From positions 186,001 through 250,000 of the forward strand of contig NZ_JANUCQ010000001.1 in the NCBI RefSeq assembly GCF_024807035.1: a stretch of DNA of 64,000 bases, read 5' to 3'. Position numbers and translations under genes: made by a program. This DNA is from Methanococcus voltae PS (GTDB lineage Archaea > AGJL01 > Methanococci > Methanococcales > Methanococcaceae). The notes under the pieces were generated by a model, which did no database searches, had not been told where the DNA came from, and worked only from the letters and a program-made list of their open reading frames with translations. Numbering within the stretch: the first letter of the stretch is position 1; each line of letters starts with the position of its first letter. Positions 17,130 to 23,418 of this stretch are shown here, in pieces.

Positions 17130-18272
17130 TTATTTAGCGTATTTTATTTTTTGTACGAATAATAATGAAATACAAGAAATTACTGCACCGATAACAAATG
17201 GTATTTTCCAGTTTACAAGCCATAATGCACCACCAATTAAGGGCATTAAAACTGCTAAAATGTGATTTATTGTAAATCCTGTCGCCACAGAAGGCGCAAT
17301 GTCTTCCGGTTCAGCTGTTTTTTGGAAATATGTATTTATACCTATTGCAAAGTTAAAGAAAAAGTTGTCCACGATATACATAAGAGCGGCAACTAATGGA
17401 TTCTCTACAAAGGCATATATAAGAAATACAAATATTAACATAGTGTATTCAATAGATAACATCTTTTTTTCGCCATATACGTTAATATATTTGGCAATTT
17501 TCGGGTAAACCAAAAATGAAATTATATTATTCATTATAAACAATGTAGTTACTTGTATTACGCTAAAATGGTATTTTTCAACCAATAAGAACAATACAAA
17601 AACCATAAATATTTGTCTTCTTGCACCACTAAGGAAATTAAGCACATAGTAAAGCCAATATTTGCTCTTTATCATCATTTTTTTCTTTTGAGGGGGAGTT
17701 TCTGGAACATTTGGAGAATTCAATAATAGATATAGCCCTCCAAGTGTTATAATTGACCCTAGTACCAAATAATTATATTTCAGTGACCAATATGATGCGG
17801 TAAACCAAATTATAATTCCAATTATTATATTACCCAACGCAGAAAGACTTTTTATTTTTCCAAACATTAAAGGGGCTTGACGTTTTGTAAAATGTTGTAA
17901 AGTTAAAGATTGATTCGTGGTTTCGAAAAAGTGGAATCCTAATGACATCATAAATGTTGTAAACATTAAACCTTCTACAGATGGGAAATAACCTGTCAAT
18001 GCAACTCCAATTCCTGAAATAACTATAGATAACGCAGCTAGTCTATGTTCTTTTATTACCATTAACACATAAACTACTAAAAATGTTAGAAATCCTGGTA
18101 TCTCCCTAATAGATTGAATCATACCAACCTGCAAACCATTGATACCTACGATATCCACCCCAAAGTTGTTAAATAATGTATTCCATATTTGCAAACCTAT
18201 TGTAGCCAGGATGGATAACGGTATTAAATAATAATACATAGGATTATTTTTTAATTCTTTAAATTCTTTCAT
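17130..18272 (-). CDS. Major facilitator superfamily transporter
   Basis: A membrane protein of about 381 residues with some 11-12 hydrophobic segments in the arrangement of an MFS transporter: an N-half ending around LTGYFPSVEGLMFTTFMMSLGFHFFETTNQS, a basic central loop (PETPPQKKKMMIKSKYW) and a C-half. No substrate-specific motif is recognised. The start could be ATG 18272, ATG 18281 or TTG 18284; I prefer 18272 because TTTGATGGT lies upstream at ribosome-site distance, but this is uncertain by three to four residues. The gene is flanked by long non-coding spacers on both sides. Confidence 0.8.
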   Translation of the reverse strand: MKEFKELKNNPMYYYLIPLSILATIGLQIWNTLFNNFGVDIVGINGLQVGMIQSIREIPGFLTFLVVYVLMVIKEHRLAALSIVISGIGVALTGYFPSVEGLMFTTFMMSLGFHFFETTNQSLTLQHFTKRQAPLMFGKIKSLSALGNIIIGIIIWFTASYWSLKYNYLVLGSIITLGGLYLLLNSPNVPETPPQKKKMMIKSKYWLYYVLNFLSGARRQIFMVFVLFLLVEKYHFSVIQVTTLFIMNNIISFLVYPKIAKYINVYGEKKMLSIEYTMLIFVFLIYAFVENPLVAALMYIVDNFFFNFAIGINTYFQKTAEPEDIAPSVATGFTINHILAVLMPLIGGALWLVNWKIPFVIGAVISCISLLFVQKIKYAK

Positions 18273-18450
18273 ATATACCATCAAATACGTAAGTGTTACT
18301 AATTTAATCTTTTTTTAAGTTTTACTAATTTATTTTTTTATTTTTTTATTTTTGAGTATTAATTGATTAATATTTACAAGTTTTGATATATAGTCTTATT
18401 CCTGAATAATAATATATCTTTAATTGTACTTAATAAATTTAAGTGTAGTT

Positions 18451-18462
18451 AAATATATATAC
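18451..18462 (+). promoter_or_regulatory. TATA box upstream of the tandem minigenes
   Basis: AAATATATATAC at 18451-18462 is a good box A. A start site about 25 bases downstream would fall near 18480-18485, right at the beginning of the repeated unit and leaving a leader of some 25 bases before the first 14-codon frame. Confidence 0.5.
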
Positions 18463-18507
18463 TAGAAACACTAATCTATTATTACAAGAGATTGGAGGTG
18501 TAAAAAA

Positions 18508-18552
18508 ATGTTTTCCAGAACGGGACTCAAAGGTATTAAAGCTAACAATTAA
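18508..18552 (+). CDS. 14-residue minigene A (tandem copy 1)
   Basis: A tiny frame encoding MFSRTGLKGIKANN, ending in the double stop TAA-TGA. GGAGGTG (18494-18500), a perfect match to the archaeal anti-Shine-Dalgarno sequence, lies eight bases upstream. Together with the promoter just before it, this makes translation likely despite the size. The second copy 98 bases downstream encodes a peptide with the same pattern (M-F-x-R-x-G-x-x-G-I-K), and substitutions between copies keep the frame. I know no family for it. No signal peptide or membrane segment is present; the peptide is basic. It could be a secreted signal, a regulatory leader peptide or a small RNA-binding peptide. Confidence 0.55.
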   Translation: MFSRTGLKGIKANN

Positions 18553-18605
18553 TGAAGTATAATACGTTATACTATAAAAATTACAAGAGATTGGAGGTGT
18601 ACGAA

Positions 18606-18650
18606 ATGTTTAATAGAGTAGGACCTAATGGTATTAAAATTACTCCGTAA
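18606..18650 (+). CDS. 14-residue minigene B (tandem copy 2)
   Basis: Second copy of the minigene, encoding MFNRVGPNGIKITP and ending in TAA-TGA. The upstream block TTACAAGAGATTGGAGGTGTA (18581-18601) is identical to that of copy 1, including the GGAGGTG ribosome site. GGTATTAAA inside the frame and TAATGAAGTATA at the end are also shared. Seven of 14 residues are identical. Compared with copy 1 there are many base changes in the codons for variable residues and none in the flanking motifs, a pattern of selection on translation and on a peptide core. Nothing similar follows downstream. Confidence 0.55.
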   Translation: MFNRVGPNGIKITP

Positions 18651-18763
18651 TGAAGTATATCATTTAATAATAGAAAATGACTTTTAATAATTAAAATTTA
18701 TTAATAATTAATATCTAATTAATTGTTCCAATTAAAAATGCTGTTTTATAATTATATATTTAC

Positions 18764-18777
18764 GTGAATTGTTTCAC
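18764..18777. promoter_or_regulatory. Inverted repeat, possible operator
   Basis: GTGAA-ATTG/TTCAC type dyad, read as GTGAATTGTTTCAC, lies immediately downstream of a TATA-like ATTATATATTT. A dyad at this distance would cover the transcription start, the usual place for an archaeal repressor site. Confidence 0.35.
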
Positions 18778-19045
18778 ATGTTTTGTCGTTATTTTTACAA
18801 ATACAACTATAATTTTTATAAAAGATTTTATCTATTCGCTAATGATTTTATTGTAGTTTATCGTAGTTTATTTTAATTTTATTTTAGTTTATTTTATTTA
18901 TATAGTATATTTTTTTATTTTTTACGTTTATTTGTCATTATCGAATATTACCTAATTAATTTTATATATTATGTGCATATATTATTATTGTCCAAATTTT
19001 GGATTTAATTTAACATAAAATTTAATTTTAAACTATTAAAATACG

Positions 19046-19070
19046 ATATATCATTAATTATGTGATATAT
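19046..19070. promoter_or_regulatory. Inverted repeat ahead of the ABC ATPase gene
   Basis: ATATATC (19046-19052) and GATATAT (19064-19070) are perfect inverted copies separated by 11 bases, about 55 bases before the ATPase start codon. They could be an operator or a weak leader hairpin; the A/T content makes chance possible. Confidence 0.3.
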
Positions 19071-19124
19071 AATTTATACAAAATTTACATAAACTTTAAT
19101 TTACAACCGCTATTTGGGGATAAA

Positions 19125-19952
19125 ATGGAAAATAACGAAAAAACCATTGAAACCGTAAGTAGTACTGAAAATACTATTCAAACTAATATTCAAAATACTG
19201 TACAAGCTGATATTAAAGAAGATTCTGAAGTTATAATCTCTTTAAGGAACATATGGAAAATATATCCCATGGGGGATTATAAAGTTACGGCACTTAAAGA
19301 TATTAACTTAGATATCCGAAAAGGAGATTTTGTAGCAATTATTGGTTCATCAGGTAGTGGTAAATCAACCATGATGAATATGATAGGTTGTTTGGATATA
19401 CCTACCGAAGGAGACGTTTATTTATACGATAAAAATATATCCAAGCTTTCAGAATCTAACTTGTCTGAATTAAGGGGTCGTTCAATTGGTTTCATATTTC
19501 AGCAGTATAATTTAATACCAAGTATGAGTGCACTCGAAAATGTTATGTTGCCCTTACAGTTCCAAGACGTAAACGATAAAGACGCAAAAAAAAGGACAAT
19601 ACGCGTTTTAGAGATGGTTGGTTTAGGGGACCGTATAAAAAATTTACCGACCCAACTTTCAGGAGGTCAACAACAAAGAGTCTCCATTGCGAGAGCTTTG
19701 GCTTGTAATCCTGATATATTACTTGCAGATGAGCCAACCGGTGCTTTAGATAGTAAAACAGGTACTCAGGTTTTAAAAATATTACAAAAATTGTGGAAAT
19801 CTGGTAAAACAATAATCATGATTACGCACGATTTAAATCTTGCAAAATATGCAAATACGCAAGTTGAATTAAAAGACGGACAAATCATTCGAAATGAATT
19901 AAATAAAAATCGAAAAGATTTTGAAGGTTTAGACGATTTAAATTTAGAATAG
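19125..19952 (+). CDS. ABC transporter ATP-binding protein, MacB/LolD type
   Basis: The ATPase of an export or extraction-type ABC system, 275 residues. A polar Thr/Asn-rich N-terminal stretch of about 33 residues precedes the domain, in which LRNIWKIYPMGDYKVTALKDINLDI starts the fold. Walker A is GSSGSGKS (74-81), signature LSGGQ (178-182), Walker B ILLADEP (198-204), and GALDSKTG is typical of the LolD/MacB/FtsE branch. ATG 19125 is preceded by GGGGA; an upstream TTG at 19062 has no site. The partner permease (FtsX type) lies two genes downstream, with a small membrane protein and a surface protein between them, all in one direction. Confidence 0.9.
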   Translation: MENNEKTIETVSSTENTIQTNIQNTVQADIKEDSEVIISLRNIWKIYPMGDYKVTALKDINLDIRKGDFVAIIGSSGSGKSTMMNMIGCLDIPTEGDVYLYDKNISKLSESNLSELRGRSIGFIFQQYNLIPSMSALENVMLPLQFQDVNDKDAKKRTIRVLEMVGLGDRIKNLPTQLSGGQQQRVSIARALACNPDILLADEPTGALDSKTGTQVLKILQKLWKSGKTIIMITHDLNLAKYANTQVELKDGQIIRNELNKNRKDFEGLDDLNLE

Positions 19953-19978
19953 AATAGCTAACAGATAATATGATAATA

Positions 19979-20022
19979 ATTTAATAATCATTTAATAATC
20001 ATTTAATAATCATTTAATAATT
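19979..20022. repeat. 11-bp tandem repeat, four copies
   Basis: ATTTAATAATC is repeated head to tail (last copy ATTTAATAATT) just before the ribosome site of the next gene. It sits in the 85-base gap between the ATPase and the small membrane protein. Confidence 0.8.
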
Positions 20023-20037
20023 TTGAAGAGGGTAATT

Positions 20038-20532
20038 ATGTTAGAGAATTTTAAGGAAATGAAATTAGGAATGAAATTTGTATTTATGTACTACGTATTA
20101 GCATCAGTTTTTGCATTAATGGGCACTGCTACTGCCATGGCATACCTTGAACCTAGATTATTAACCGGATTTGTTCAAGGAATGCCTGCAATTGCAATAA
20201 ATATATTAGTGTTTGGTATTTGGACAATACTTGCATATGGAATCTATTCTGCAAAGAAATGGGCTGAAAAAGGAGTGCTTGCATGGAATGCTTATGGAAT
20301 CTTGTTTTCTCTAATAAATTTAGTTATGGTTATCGCAATACCTGATTCATTATTGAACACAGTACCTGCAGATATGAAAGCTGAATTATTGGCGGGAGCA
20401 ACTGCAGCTGAAAGTGCAATGATTTTAGAATTTATGAAATACAGTGTAATTGCATCAGATATCATAATAATATTGATATCAGGGAGTATATTGTATTACA
20501 TATTAAAAAATAAGTATTATTTCAGGAATTAA
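20038..20532 (+). CDS. Small four-helix membrane protein of the ABC cluster
   Basis: A 164-residue protein with about four membrane helices: FVFMYYVLASVFALMGTATA, IAINILVFGIWTILAYGIYS, WNAYGILFSLINLVMVIAI and a last one near IIIILISGSILYYIL. I do not recognise the family. It lies between the ATPase and the surface protein of the MacB-like system and is likely an accessory membrane component. ATG 20038 has AAGAGGGT upstream, so it replaces an earlier TTG at 20023. Confidence 0.75.
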   Translation: MLENFKEMKLGMKFVFMYYVLASVFALMGTATAMAYLEPRLLTGFVQGMPAIAINILVFGIWTILAYGIYSAKKWAEKGVLAWNAYGILFSLINLVMVIAIPDSLLNTVPADMKAELLAGATAAESAMILEFMKYSVIASDIIIILISGSILYYILKNKYYFRN

Positions 20533-20751
20533 TTAATATTATATTCTTAAAATGCTTTATTTTTATATTATTTTATCTTAAATGGAATTAAAATTAAAAA
20601 TAACTAAGATAGCCAAGATAATTAAAATAATTATACTAATTAACATACTAAATGGTTTATAAAATAAAGAATACAAAAAAATGACGCATAACATAATTAA
20701 TTTAAAATTTCTAAAGCATATTAATTTACAATTTACAGTAAAGGTGTAGAT

Positions 20752-22029
20752 ATGAATATTCAAAGAATTATCACGTTACTGTCGGTTCTATTAATTTTCA
20801 CAATACCGGCATACGCAGAAACTACAGACTATACATACAGTGATTTGGCAAAGTTCAATGACCCCGAAGTAATTCAATTAATAAATATGAAAATGGTTAA
20901 TCAAAACCCGGACCCTGCTATTGCGGGTGACGTATTCGAATTTAGGGTCAGTGTAGAGAATATTGGCGGTTTATCTGATGGAAATTATATTTTAGAAGTT
21001 AACCCAAAATATCCTTTTGAAGCCGTACCTGGCGAATCCTTAAAATCACAAATCGGAGTTATTGCAGATTATCAAGATGGTAAAGATGCAATCATCTCAA
21101 AATTTAAATTGAAAGTTGCAAAAGGTGTTTATGCAGGAGATTATCCTGTTGAAATAATGCTTTATAAAGTGGGCGAAAAAGACACCGGTTTAAAGAAAGA
21201 AATATACATTAACGTTGCAAATAAAGAAGCTACGGAAGTTAAAATAAGCAAAAAGGAATTCAACGCAGGAGAAACTACTAAAATGGTATTTACCATTAAG
21301 AATGTAGGTTCTGCTAATTTAAAAGATGTAACATTCTCATGGAATACTGCAGATAATGTTTTATTGCCTGTGGGTTCCGGTAATTCAAGATATATTCAAG
21401 AATTAGACGTTGGTCAATCTACAGATATCGAATATGACGTTTCTTCAAGTACTGACGCAGACCCTGGTTTATATCAGTTAAATATCAATATGACATTTAA
21501 TGATTACAAAAATGGTAGCAAACAGTCAATTCTTACAACAGCGGGAGTTATAATAACTGGTAATACTGACTTCGAAGTAGTATATTCAGAAAATCAAGAT
21601 AATTCTTATTCATTTTCTGTTTCAAATACTGGGAAAATTCAAGCAAACTCTGTATCGGTAAGTGTACCTAGGCAAGATGGCTGGACAATATCGGGACCTG
21701 ATACGGTAATCATAGGTAATTTATTACAAGGAGACTATACTTACGCAAGTTTTAGCTTAAGTCCTGAGGGTAATAATCAAAATATTACTCTAAATGTAAA
21801 GTATACTGATGATAAGGGTGTTAGACAGACTCTTAAAAAAGTGGTAAATTTACCAAATAATACAGACCCTACGTCAGAATTTAGTGGATTAAAAGGAGCT
21901 AATGATAAATCAGACGGTTTAGATTATAGCTTTGTACCATATGTAATAGTTGGCTTACTATTGGTAGGTGGCGTAGCTTATTACATCATAAGAAGAAGAA
22001 AAAATTCAAAAAAGAAATTAGATATTTAA
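20752..22029 (+). CDS. Membrane-anchored surface protein with CARDB/NEW3-like repeats (COG1361 type)
   Basis: A 425-residue protein with a signal peptide (IITLLSVLLIFTIPAYAET, cleavage probably after AYA), an extracellular part of beta-sandwich repeats and a C-terminal anchor (YVIVGLLLVGGVAYYII followed by RRRKNSKKK). The repeats show the pattern of CARDB/NEW3 domains: DVFEFRVSVENIGGLSDGNY, GETTKMVFTIKNVGSANLKDV and SYSFSVSNTGKIQANSV. Such S-layer-like proteins are often encoded between or beside MacB-type ATPase and permease genes in archaea, where they may act outside the membrane like the MacA adaptor. That role is inference from position. Confidence 0.8.
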   Translation: MNIQRIITLLSVLLIFTIPAYAETTDYTYSDLAKFNDPEVIQLINMKMVNQNPDPAIAGDVFEFRVSVENIGGLSDGNYILEVNPKYPFEAVPGESLKSQIGVIADYQDGKDAIISKFKLKVAKGVYAGDYPVEIMLYKVGEKDTGLKKEIYINVANKEATEVKISKKEFNAGETTKMVFTIKNVGSANLKDVTFSWNTADNVLLPVGSGNSRYIQELDVGQSTDIEYDVSSSTDADPGLYQLNINMTFNDYKNGSKQSILTTAGVIITGNTDFEVVYSENQDNSYSFSVSNTGKIQANSVSVSVPRQDGWTISGPDTVIIGNLLQGDYTYASFSLSPEGNNQNITLNVKYTDDKGVRQTLKKVVNLPNNTDPTSEFSGLKGANDKSDGLDYSFVPYVIVGLLLVGGVAYYIIRRRKNSKKKLDI

Positions 22030-22188
22030 TCTATTTAATTTACTTAAATTATCTAATTTATTTAATTATTTAATTACTTAATTATTTATTTTAGGTATTT
22101 TATTTGAAAATATCGCATATTTTTACTTTAATTTATTAAAAATTTAAAATAATCGCTTAATTTAAACAAATACCCAAAGGGTGTAACT

Positions 22189-23418
22189 GTGAATAAATTA
22201 AAACTATTTAACATGTCAATAAAAATGGTTAAAAATAGTAAATTAAGAAGCTGGTTAACCATAATTGGAATTATAGTTGGCGTGGCTTCAGTTATTACCA
22301 TAATTTCCACGGGTGAATTATTCCAAGATAAAGTTTCTGAAACTATTTCTGGTTTTGGAGGTAGCACGATATCGATACACGCACAAAACAATGGCGAAAG
22401 TTCTATTCATGATAAGGACCCTGAACTTACCCGTACCGATGTAATGGTGCTACAAGGTCTACCCGTTGTGAAATACGTTAATCCGAAAGTGTCGGTTTTT
22501 GCAGAAGCTACGTATGGTACTAAAAAGACTAATTTTTATGTAGAAGGTGTTGACCCAGGGGTTTGGCCTCAAATATCCGACCAAAAATTGCTAGAAGGTA
22601 GGATGTTTTCACCATCTGATAGAAATGTAATTTTAATTACAAAAGATGTTGCAGAGAATTCATTTGATAGAAAAGTTGGTTTGAACCAAATGATAAATTT
22701 AAATGGAAAGTCTTTCCGAGTAATCGGTATTTTAGATGACGATAGAGGAATTAGTAGCTTTTTCGCATCAGGAGTTTATATTCCATACAAAATGGCTTAT
22801 GAAATACCTGAAAAGGAAGGTTTATCTAGGACTAAAAAAAGAGACGTTTATGATTCCATAGAAATTAAATTAGCTGACGATGTAGATTATAATTATTCAA
22901 TGAATTCAATTAAAAAAGCTCTTAGGACTTCAAGGCACGTAACAGAATCTACCGAAGATTTTACCATATTTTCTTCAAAAGATATATTGGAAGGTACAAA
23001 AGATATATTAAACTATATAACTCTATTCCTTGCATTTATTGCAGGAATTGCATTACTAGTGGGTTCTTTAGGTATCGCAAACACTATGTTTACCTCAGTT
23101 TTAGAGAAAACAAAAGAAATAGGTATTATGAAATCGATAGGTGCTAAAAATAGGGATATATTGATGTTATTCTTATTTAACTCAGCTTTAATCGGTTTAA
23201 TCGGTGGTATATTGGGGGCAATAATCGGAATTGCAATTACTCAAGTCATAGCTTATGCAATAGCAATGCAAATGCAAACACCATATACGTTTGTAATCAG
23301 TATGAACGGTATTATAATTTCATTATCTGTATCAATACTCGCAGGGCTTATTTCTGGAGTGATACCTGCTTATAATGCTTCAAAATTAAAACCGGTAGAT
23401 GCTCTAAGACATGATTAG
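22189..23418 (+). CDS. ABC transporter permease, MacB/FtsX type
   Basis: The permease partner of the ATPase at 19125, 409 residues. It has one N-terminal helix (LRSWLTIIGIIVGVASVITIIS), a large extracytoplasmic MacB-like periplasmic-core domain (about 45-270) and three C-terminal helices starting near YITLFLAFIAGIALLVGSLGIANTMFTSV, with KTKEIGIMKSIGAKNRDI, the FtsX-domain coupling segment, and GLISGVIPAYNASKLKPVDALR at the end. This fold moves or extracts substrates at the outer face of the membrane rather than importing them. The start is GTG 22189, preceded by GGGTGTAACT. A run of T tracts follows the stop. Confidence 0.9.
   Translation: MNKLKLFNMSIKMVKNSKLRSWLTIIGIIVGVASVITIISTGELFQDKVSETISGFGGSTISIHAQNNGESSIHDKDPELTRTDVMVLQGLPVVKYVNPKVSVFAEATYGTKKTNFYVEGVDPGVWPQISDQKLLEGRMFSPSDRNVILITKDVAENSFDRKVGLNQMINLNGKSFRVIGILDDDRGISSFFASGVYIPYKMAYEIPEKEGLSRTKKRDVYDSIEIKLADDVDYNYSMNSIKKALRTSRHVTESTEDFTIFSSKDILEGTKDILNYITLFLAFIAGIALLVGSLGIANTMFTSVLEKTKEIGIMKSIGAKNRDILMLFLFNSALIGLIGGILGAIIGIAITQVIAYAIAMQMQTPYTFVISMNGIIISLSVSILAGLISGVIPAYNASKLKPVDALRHD

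Follow-up and report, generated by a model that had tools for sequence, protein, structure and literature searches.

The locus and its neighbours

Two frames of 14 codons lie side by side, without annotation, in the genome of a methane-making archaeon (1.78 Mb, Methanococcales). They occupy positions 18508-18552 and 18606-18650 of the window, by which we mean the whole 64 kb stretch of DNA analysed here. The genome was compared with six congeneric genomes, and orthologues of the frames were found in two of these species (G005 and G006). The features of the region are as follows.

17130..18284, minus strand: divergent neighbouring gene for an MFS-type membrane transporter (Pfam MFS_1, E 9.8e-18)
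18405..18480, plus strand: probable archaeal promoter, AGTTAAATATATATACTA, with its TATA-like core at 18451-18461
18481..18507, plus strand: leader 1, Shine-Dalgarno (SD) GGAGGTG; 26/27 identical in G005, GGAGGTG also in G006
18508..18552, plus strand: minigene 1, MFSRTGLKGIKANN, stop TAA then TGA; peptide identical in the G005 orthologue, with four silent changes
18580..18605, plus strand: leader 2, SD GGAGGTG; its first 22 nt equal leader 1 in the window genome only, G005 having diverged (GGGGGTG, with altered flanks)
18606..18650, plus strand: minigene 2, MFNRVGPNGIKITP, stop TAA then TGA; the G005 orthologue is MFTRVGPNGIKITP, with 0, 1 and 4 changes at the first, second and third codon positions
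19125..23418, plus strand: neighbouring operon for an ABC ATPase, a small membrane protein, a membrane protein with CARDB/NPCBM-associated domains and a MacB/FtsX permease (Pfam, NCBIfam)

The layout described in a sequence-only reading was borne out: the two frames each follow GGAGGTG, their starts are 98 nt apart, both close with TAA-TGA-AGTAT and a single TATA-like box (AAATATATATA, 18451-18461) precedes the pair. The part of the promoter region running from AATTTAAG to TAGTTAAATATATATACTA is common to all three species, and, given the general spacing between TATA box and start in archaea, transcription of the unit would begin near 18480. The SD matches 7 nt, CACCUCC, of the 3′ end of methanogen 16S rRNA. 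The same reading held that the codons for F, R, G and GIK are shared by the two copies, which is correct (the M codon is also identical), and that the flanking signals are kept exactly. The latter is true within the window genome, where the 22 nt leader ATTACAAGAGATTGGAGGTGTA occurs in identical copies at 18481-18502 and 18580-18601, but not in G005, where leader 2 reads ...AATTCAAGGGGGTGTACGAAAATG.

The intergenic region has a G+C content of 18%. In 3000 dinucleotide shuffles of it, two frames of 8-40 codons behind GG[AG]GGT never arose and one such frame arose 11 times; in the 64 kb window, short frames with a strong SD of this form comprise both minigenes and a few unrelated ones. Across the three species the peptides follow the consensus M-F-[STN]-R-[TVI]-G-[LPI]-[KN]-G-I-K-[AIV]-[NT]-[NP]. 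They have 14 residues, a GRAVY of -0.49 to +0.24, a charge of +1.5 to +2.5 and a pI of about 11, and carry neither a signal or leader sequence nor a hydrophobic membrane-spanning stretch like that of type I toxins. An inverted repeat, ACTTAA-TAAAT-TTAAGT (18428-18444), lies just upstream of the TATA box; sequence with partial similarity to it occurs ahead of a putative lipoprotein gene (L002, 1501-1536), which may reflect chance in AT-rich DNA.

The next gene starts more than about 400 nt downstream of the minigenes, which are separated from the ABC operon by about 475 nt of AT-rich DNA that is in part poorly conserved. Identity over 18761-18930 is 52% with G005 and 29% with G006; the region immediately upstream of the operon (18931-19124) is 94% and 75% conserved and probably constitutes a separate promoter region, judging from this comparison. 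It includes a near-perfect palindrome, TCCAAATTTTGGA (18991-19003), which is kept in G005 and is one base shorter in G006, and which is possibly an operator. The ABC ATPase gives scores against exporter models for darobactin, bacteriocin-972 and MacB, each of them below the cut-off of the model. Within the operon, 20023-20532 encodes a probable membrane protein of 169 amino acids with no match in Pfam or NCBIfam. The genes near the minigenes include MFS, ABC, CARDB, MacB and prephenate dehydrogenase genes; the scan of the nearest genes revealed none for processing or modification.

Distribution and substitution pattern

G005 has both copies of the minigene and G006 a single copy (MFSRIGIKGIKVNP), so that the tandem arrangement proposed earlier extends to the window genome and G005 but not to G006. 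In all three the location is alike, between the divergent MFS gene and the MacB-type ABC operon. The single G006 frame keeps its SD and its 14 codons; start, SD and stop of an open frame are therefore maintained across three species. The motif MFxRxGxxGIK, which had been suggested as a probe for the order, is matched in G005 and G006 and has no match in the other 33 of 36 Methanococcales genomes searched; the search at phylum level covered the same 36 genomes. The genomes compared are species representatives, three of which carry the minigenes. The other four genomes of the genus have relatives of the MFS gene and the ABC ATPase and lack the peptides: the MFS gene is present in seven of seven genomes, these four included, and the ATPase likewise occurs in the other genomes of the genus. 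A scan of the MFS and ABC loci retrieved from these relatives revealed no similar minigenes upstream of the transporter genes, the sequence upstream of the MFS gene being read directly for two of them. In one congeneric genome (G003, C1:158860-159974, L034 and L035) the MFS gene appears to be split by frame changes into two pieces, with stops inside the first.

Wider searches gave no further candidates. A scan of GTDB r220, which may omit records close to the window genome, for the motif with GGTG before the start returned five matches, none convincing and all chance-like. Most pattern matches in GTDB r220 and IMG/VR fell in long proteins, in GC-rich sites or in short frames that lacked a convincing SD, and the weaker DNA matches that were inspected lay inside or beside other genes. 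No description of the locus was found in the literature.

Between the window genome and G005, copy 1 differs by four bases, all silent third-position changes with no replacement (p = 0.004), and copy 2 by five, four of them silent third-position changes and one a replacement, N3T (p = 0.022), where p is the frequency with which simulated random changes yield so few replacements. Combined by hand with Fisher's method, the two give about 0.001 on the assumption that the copies are independent, which they may not fully be, since ATT has changed to ATC at the same codon in both. The corresponding pN and pS values, from few sites, are 0 and 0.44 for copy 1 and 0.03 and 0.41 for copy 2, the protein-level constraint that a translated small ORF would show. 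Comparison of window copy 1 with G006 gave p = 0.011, whereas G005 copy 1 against G006 was not significant (p = 0.13). Over the same distance from window to G005, identity is 89-91% in the ORFs, 56% in the spacer and 48% in leader 2. Silent-biased change in the ORFs beside fast-diverging flanks is the pattern of protein-level selection.

Within the window genome the two copies differ from each other with pS 0.47 and pN 0.36, and no clear constraint is visible. The proposal that the short peptides are under selection is accordingly upheld by the silent changes between species and by the frame in a third species, and not by the comparison of copies on which it had been based; the dN/dS contrast that had been called for appears between orthologues and not between copies. 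The argument from copies within one genome is weak given these values and given that the identity of the leaders may be owed to gene conversion. Because pN is 0.36 between paralogues and 0 and 0.03 between orthologues, the copies diverged first and each was then held; the duplication would be older than the divergence between the window species and G005, the two peptides having since been kept as distinct sequences. At 18532-18540 and 18630-18638 the window has GGTATTAAA in both copies, where G005 (locus L007) has GGTATCAAA. The matching silent ATT/ATC change hints at gene conversion between the copies, perhaps in one event, and conversion is a simple account of both this change and the identical leaders.

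Possible roles of the minigenes

We consider it probable (about 0.72) that the minigenes encode translated, selected peptides that act as peptides and are expressed from a small stand-alone transcription unit restricted to one clade. One small mRNA, begun at the TATA box just upstream, would yield two paralogous cationic peptides of 14 residues, each translated from its own strong ribosome site, and the peptide itself would be the selected product, acting in trans on a partner, either protein or membrane, to which it binds. Points against this reading are the small number of substitutions (only nine between the closest orthologues, those of the window and G005), a motif confined to three species and the possible single gene-conversion event; in addition, free peptides of 14 residues often have a short lifetime inside cells.

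A branch of the same explanation, possible but doubtful, has the peptides exported by the adjacent MFS or MacB-type transporter as signalling or growth-inhibiting peptides. On one side of the minigenes lies the MFS gene and on the other the ABC operon, with an ATPase whose exporter-like scores fall below the cut-offs; the peptides are cationic, with their pI of about 11, and the paralogues have diverged and yet are each conserved. However, the absence of a signal or leader sequence and of a processing or modification gene among the scanned neighbours counts against export, which is further weakened by the presence of both transporters in related species that lack the peptides. That two co-transcribed, diverged and near-fixed 14-residue peptides should work together extracellularly, as signal or antagonist, in a single clade of Methanococcus we regard as unlikely. 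As the site of action a cytosolic binding partner, of the sort known for methanogen small proteins, seems likelier than export, since a signal sequence is lacking and the two adjacent transporters are not confined to the peptide-bearing species.

The sequence-only reading had also raised leader-peptide and antisense roles, and neither gained support. Leader peptides that sense translation would act through attenuation on the ABC operon that lies downstream; the minigenes are on the same strand as the operon, and their strong SD and shortness resemble those of regulatory leader ORFs. This is very unlikely because no gene follows at short distance and the ABC operon, about 475 nt away, is preceded by a conserved region of its own, probably a promoter; moreover, the minigenes were not seen beside the ABC gene in other species, folding of the RNA does not exceed chance (z of +0.92 and +0.85 against shuffles), and a regulated gene directly downstream combined with alternative hairpins, as in a regulatory leader or attenuator, was not observed. 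That the RNA itself, as a small RNA or antisense decoy, is the functional product and the frames are incidental appears quite improbable. A short independent transcript is plausible and dual-function small RNAs are known in Methanosarcina mazei (PMC11456600), but the changes fall at third codon positions, the spacer has diverged, folding does not improve on that of the shuffles and the locus has no Rfam match at E up to 1. To a recently duplicated, non-functional stretch, its frames intact because little time has elapsed, we give very little credence. Although the leaders are identical in the window genome and divergence is limited, about half of leader 2 and the spacer differs between the window and G005, against almost exclusively silent differences in the ORFs, and G006 retains the frame and SD. 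The reading in which the peptide is the product remains, given the lack of a fold beyond chance, of an Rfam match and of a close downstream gene, and given that the stretch ahead of the ABC operon is conserved separately.

Comparison with known systems

The small proteins of methanogens are the nearest kind to these minigenes and staphylococcal PSM-alpha the nearest layout. We know of no sequence resemblance between the minigene peptides and the small proteins of M. mazei. Three of the latter, sP26, sP36 and sORF_154, were found by Ribo-seq and peptidomics; sP26 binds glutamine synthetase, sP36 is linked to the ammonium transporter, and some of the M. mazei small proteins bind metabolic proteins or regulate transporters (PMC11456600). 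Like the minigenes, they derive from short archaeal ORFs that had no annotation and are conserved in close relatives only, but they are longer (sORF_154 has 20 amino acids; PMC11456600), whereas the minigenes are tandem paralogues with predicted translation. Such short genes lie under the length limits of annotation, and few of them in archaea are backed by evolutionary evidence. The present locus, with two diverged paralogues and a single-copy relative at one syntenic place, provides a compact test case; if made, the peptides would be among the shortest stand-alone gene products of archaea, and their role could be put to the test with the genetics of Methanococcus.

In PSM-alpha a number of very short paralogous ORFs follow one another, every one with an SD of its own and none with a signal sequence, an arrangement shared by the minigenes. 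The PSMs are amphipathic helices of 20-25 amino acids with a dedicated exporter; the 14-mers, unlike them, contain two Gly, to which copy 2 and the G006 peptide add a Pro, and lack an exporter exclusive to them. The microcin C system includes an MFS exporter, and here an MFS gene lies next door and copy 1 ends in Asn. Its precursor gene mccA is likewise of minigene scale (PMC6495379), but has seven codons as opposed to 14, and copy 2 and the G006 peptide end in Pro, not Asn. A microcin C-like precursor was rejected, the C-terminal Asn not being general and no MccB-like adenylating enzyme occurring among the nearest genes. The C-terminus of PII (GlnB/GlnK) in other Methanococcus, RIRTGESGIKAI, contains R-T-G-x-x-G-I-K-A and so resembles copy 1. 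We regard this as coincidence: copy 2 and the G006 peptide are without RTG, the location differs and the PII of the window genome itself ends in RTGENGNTAIK.
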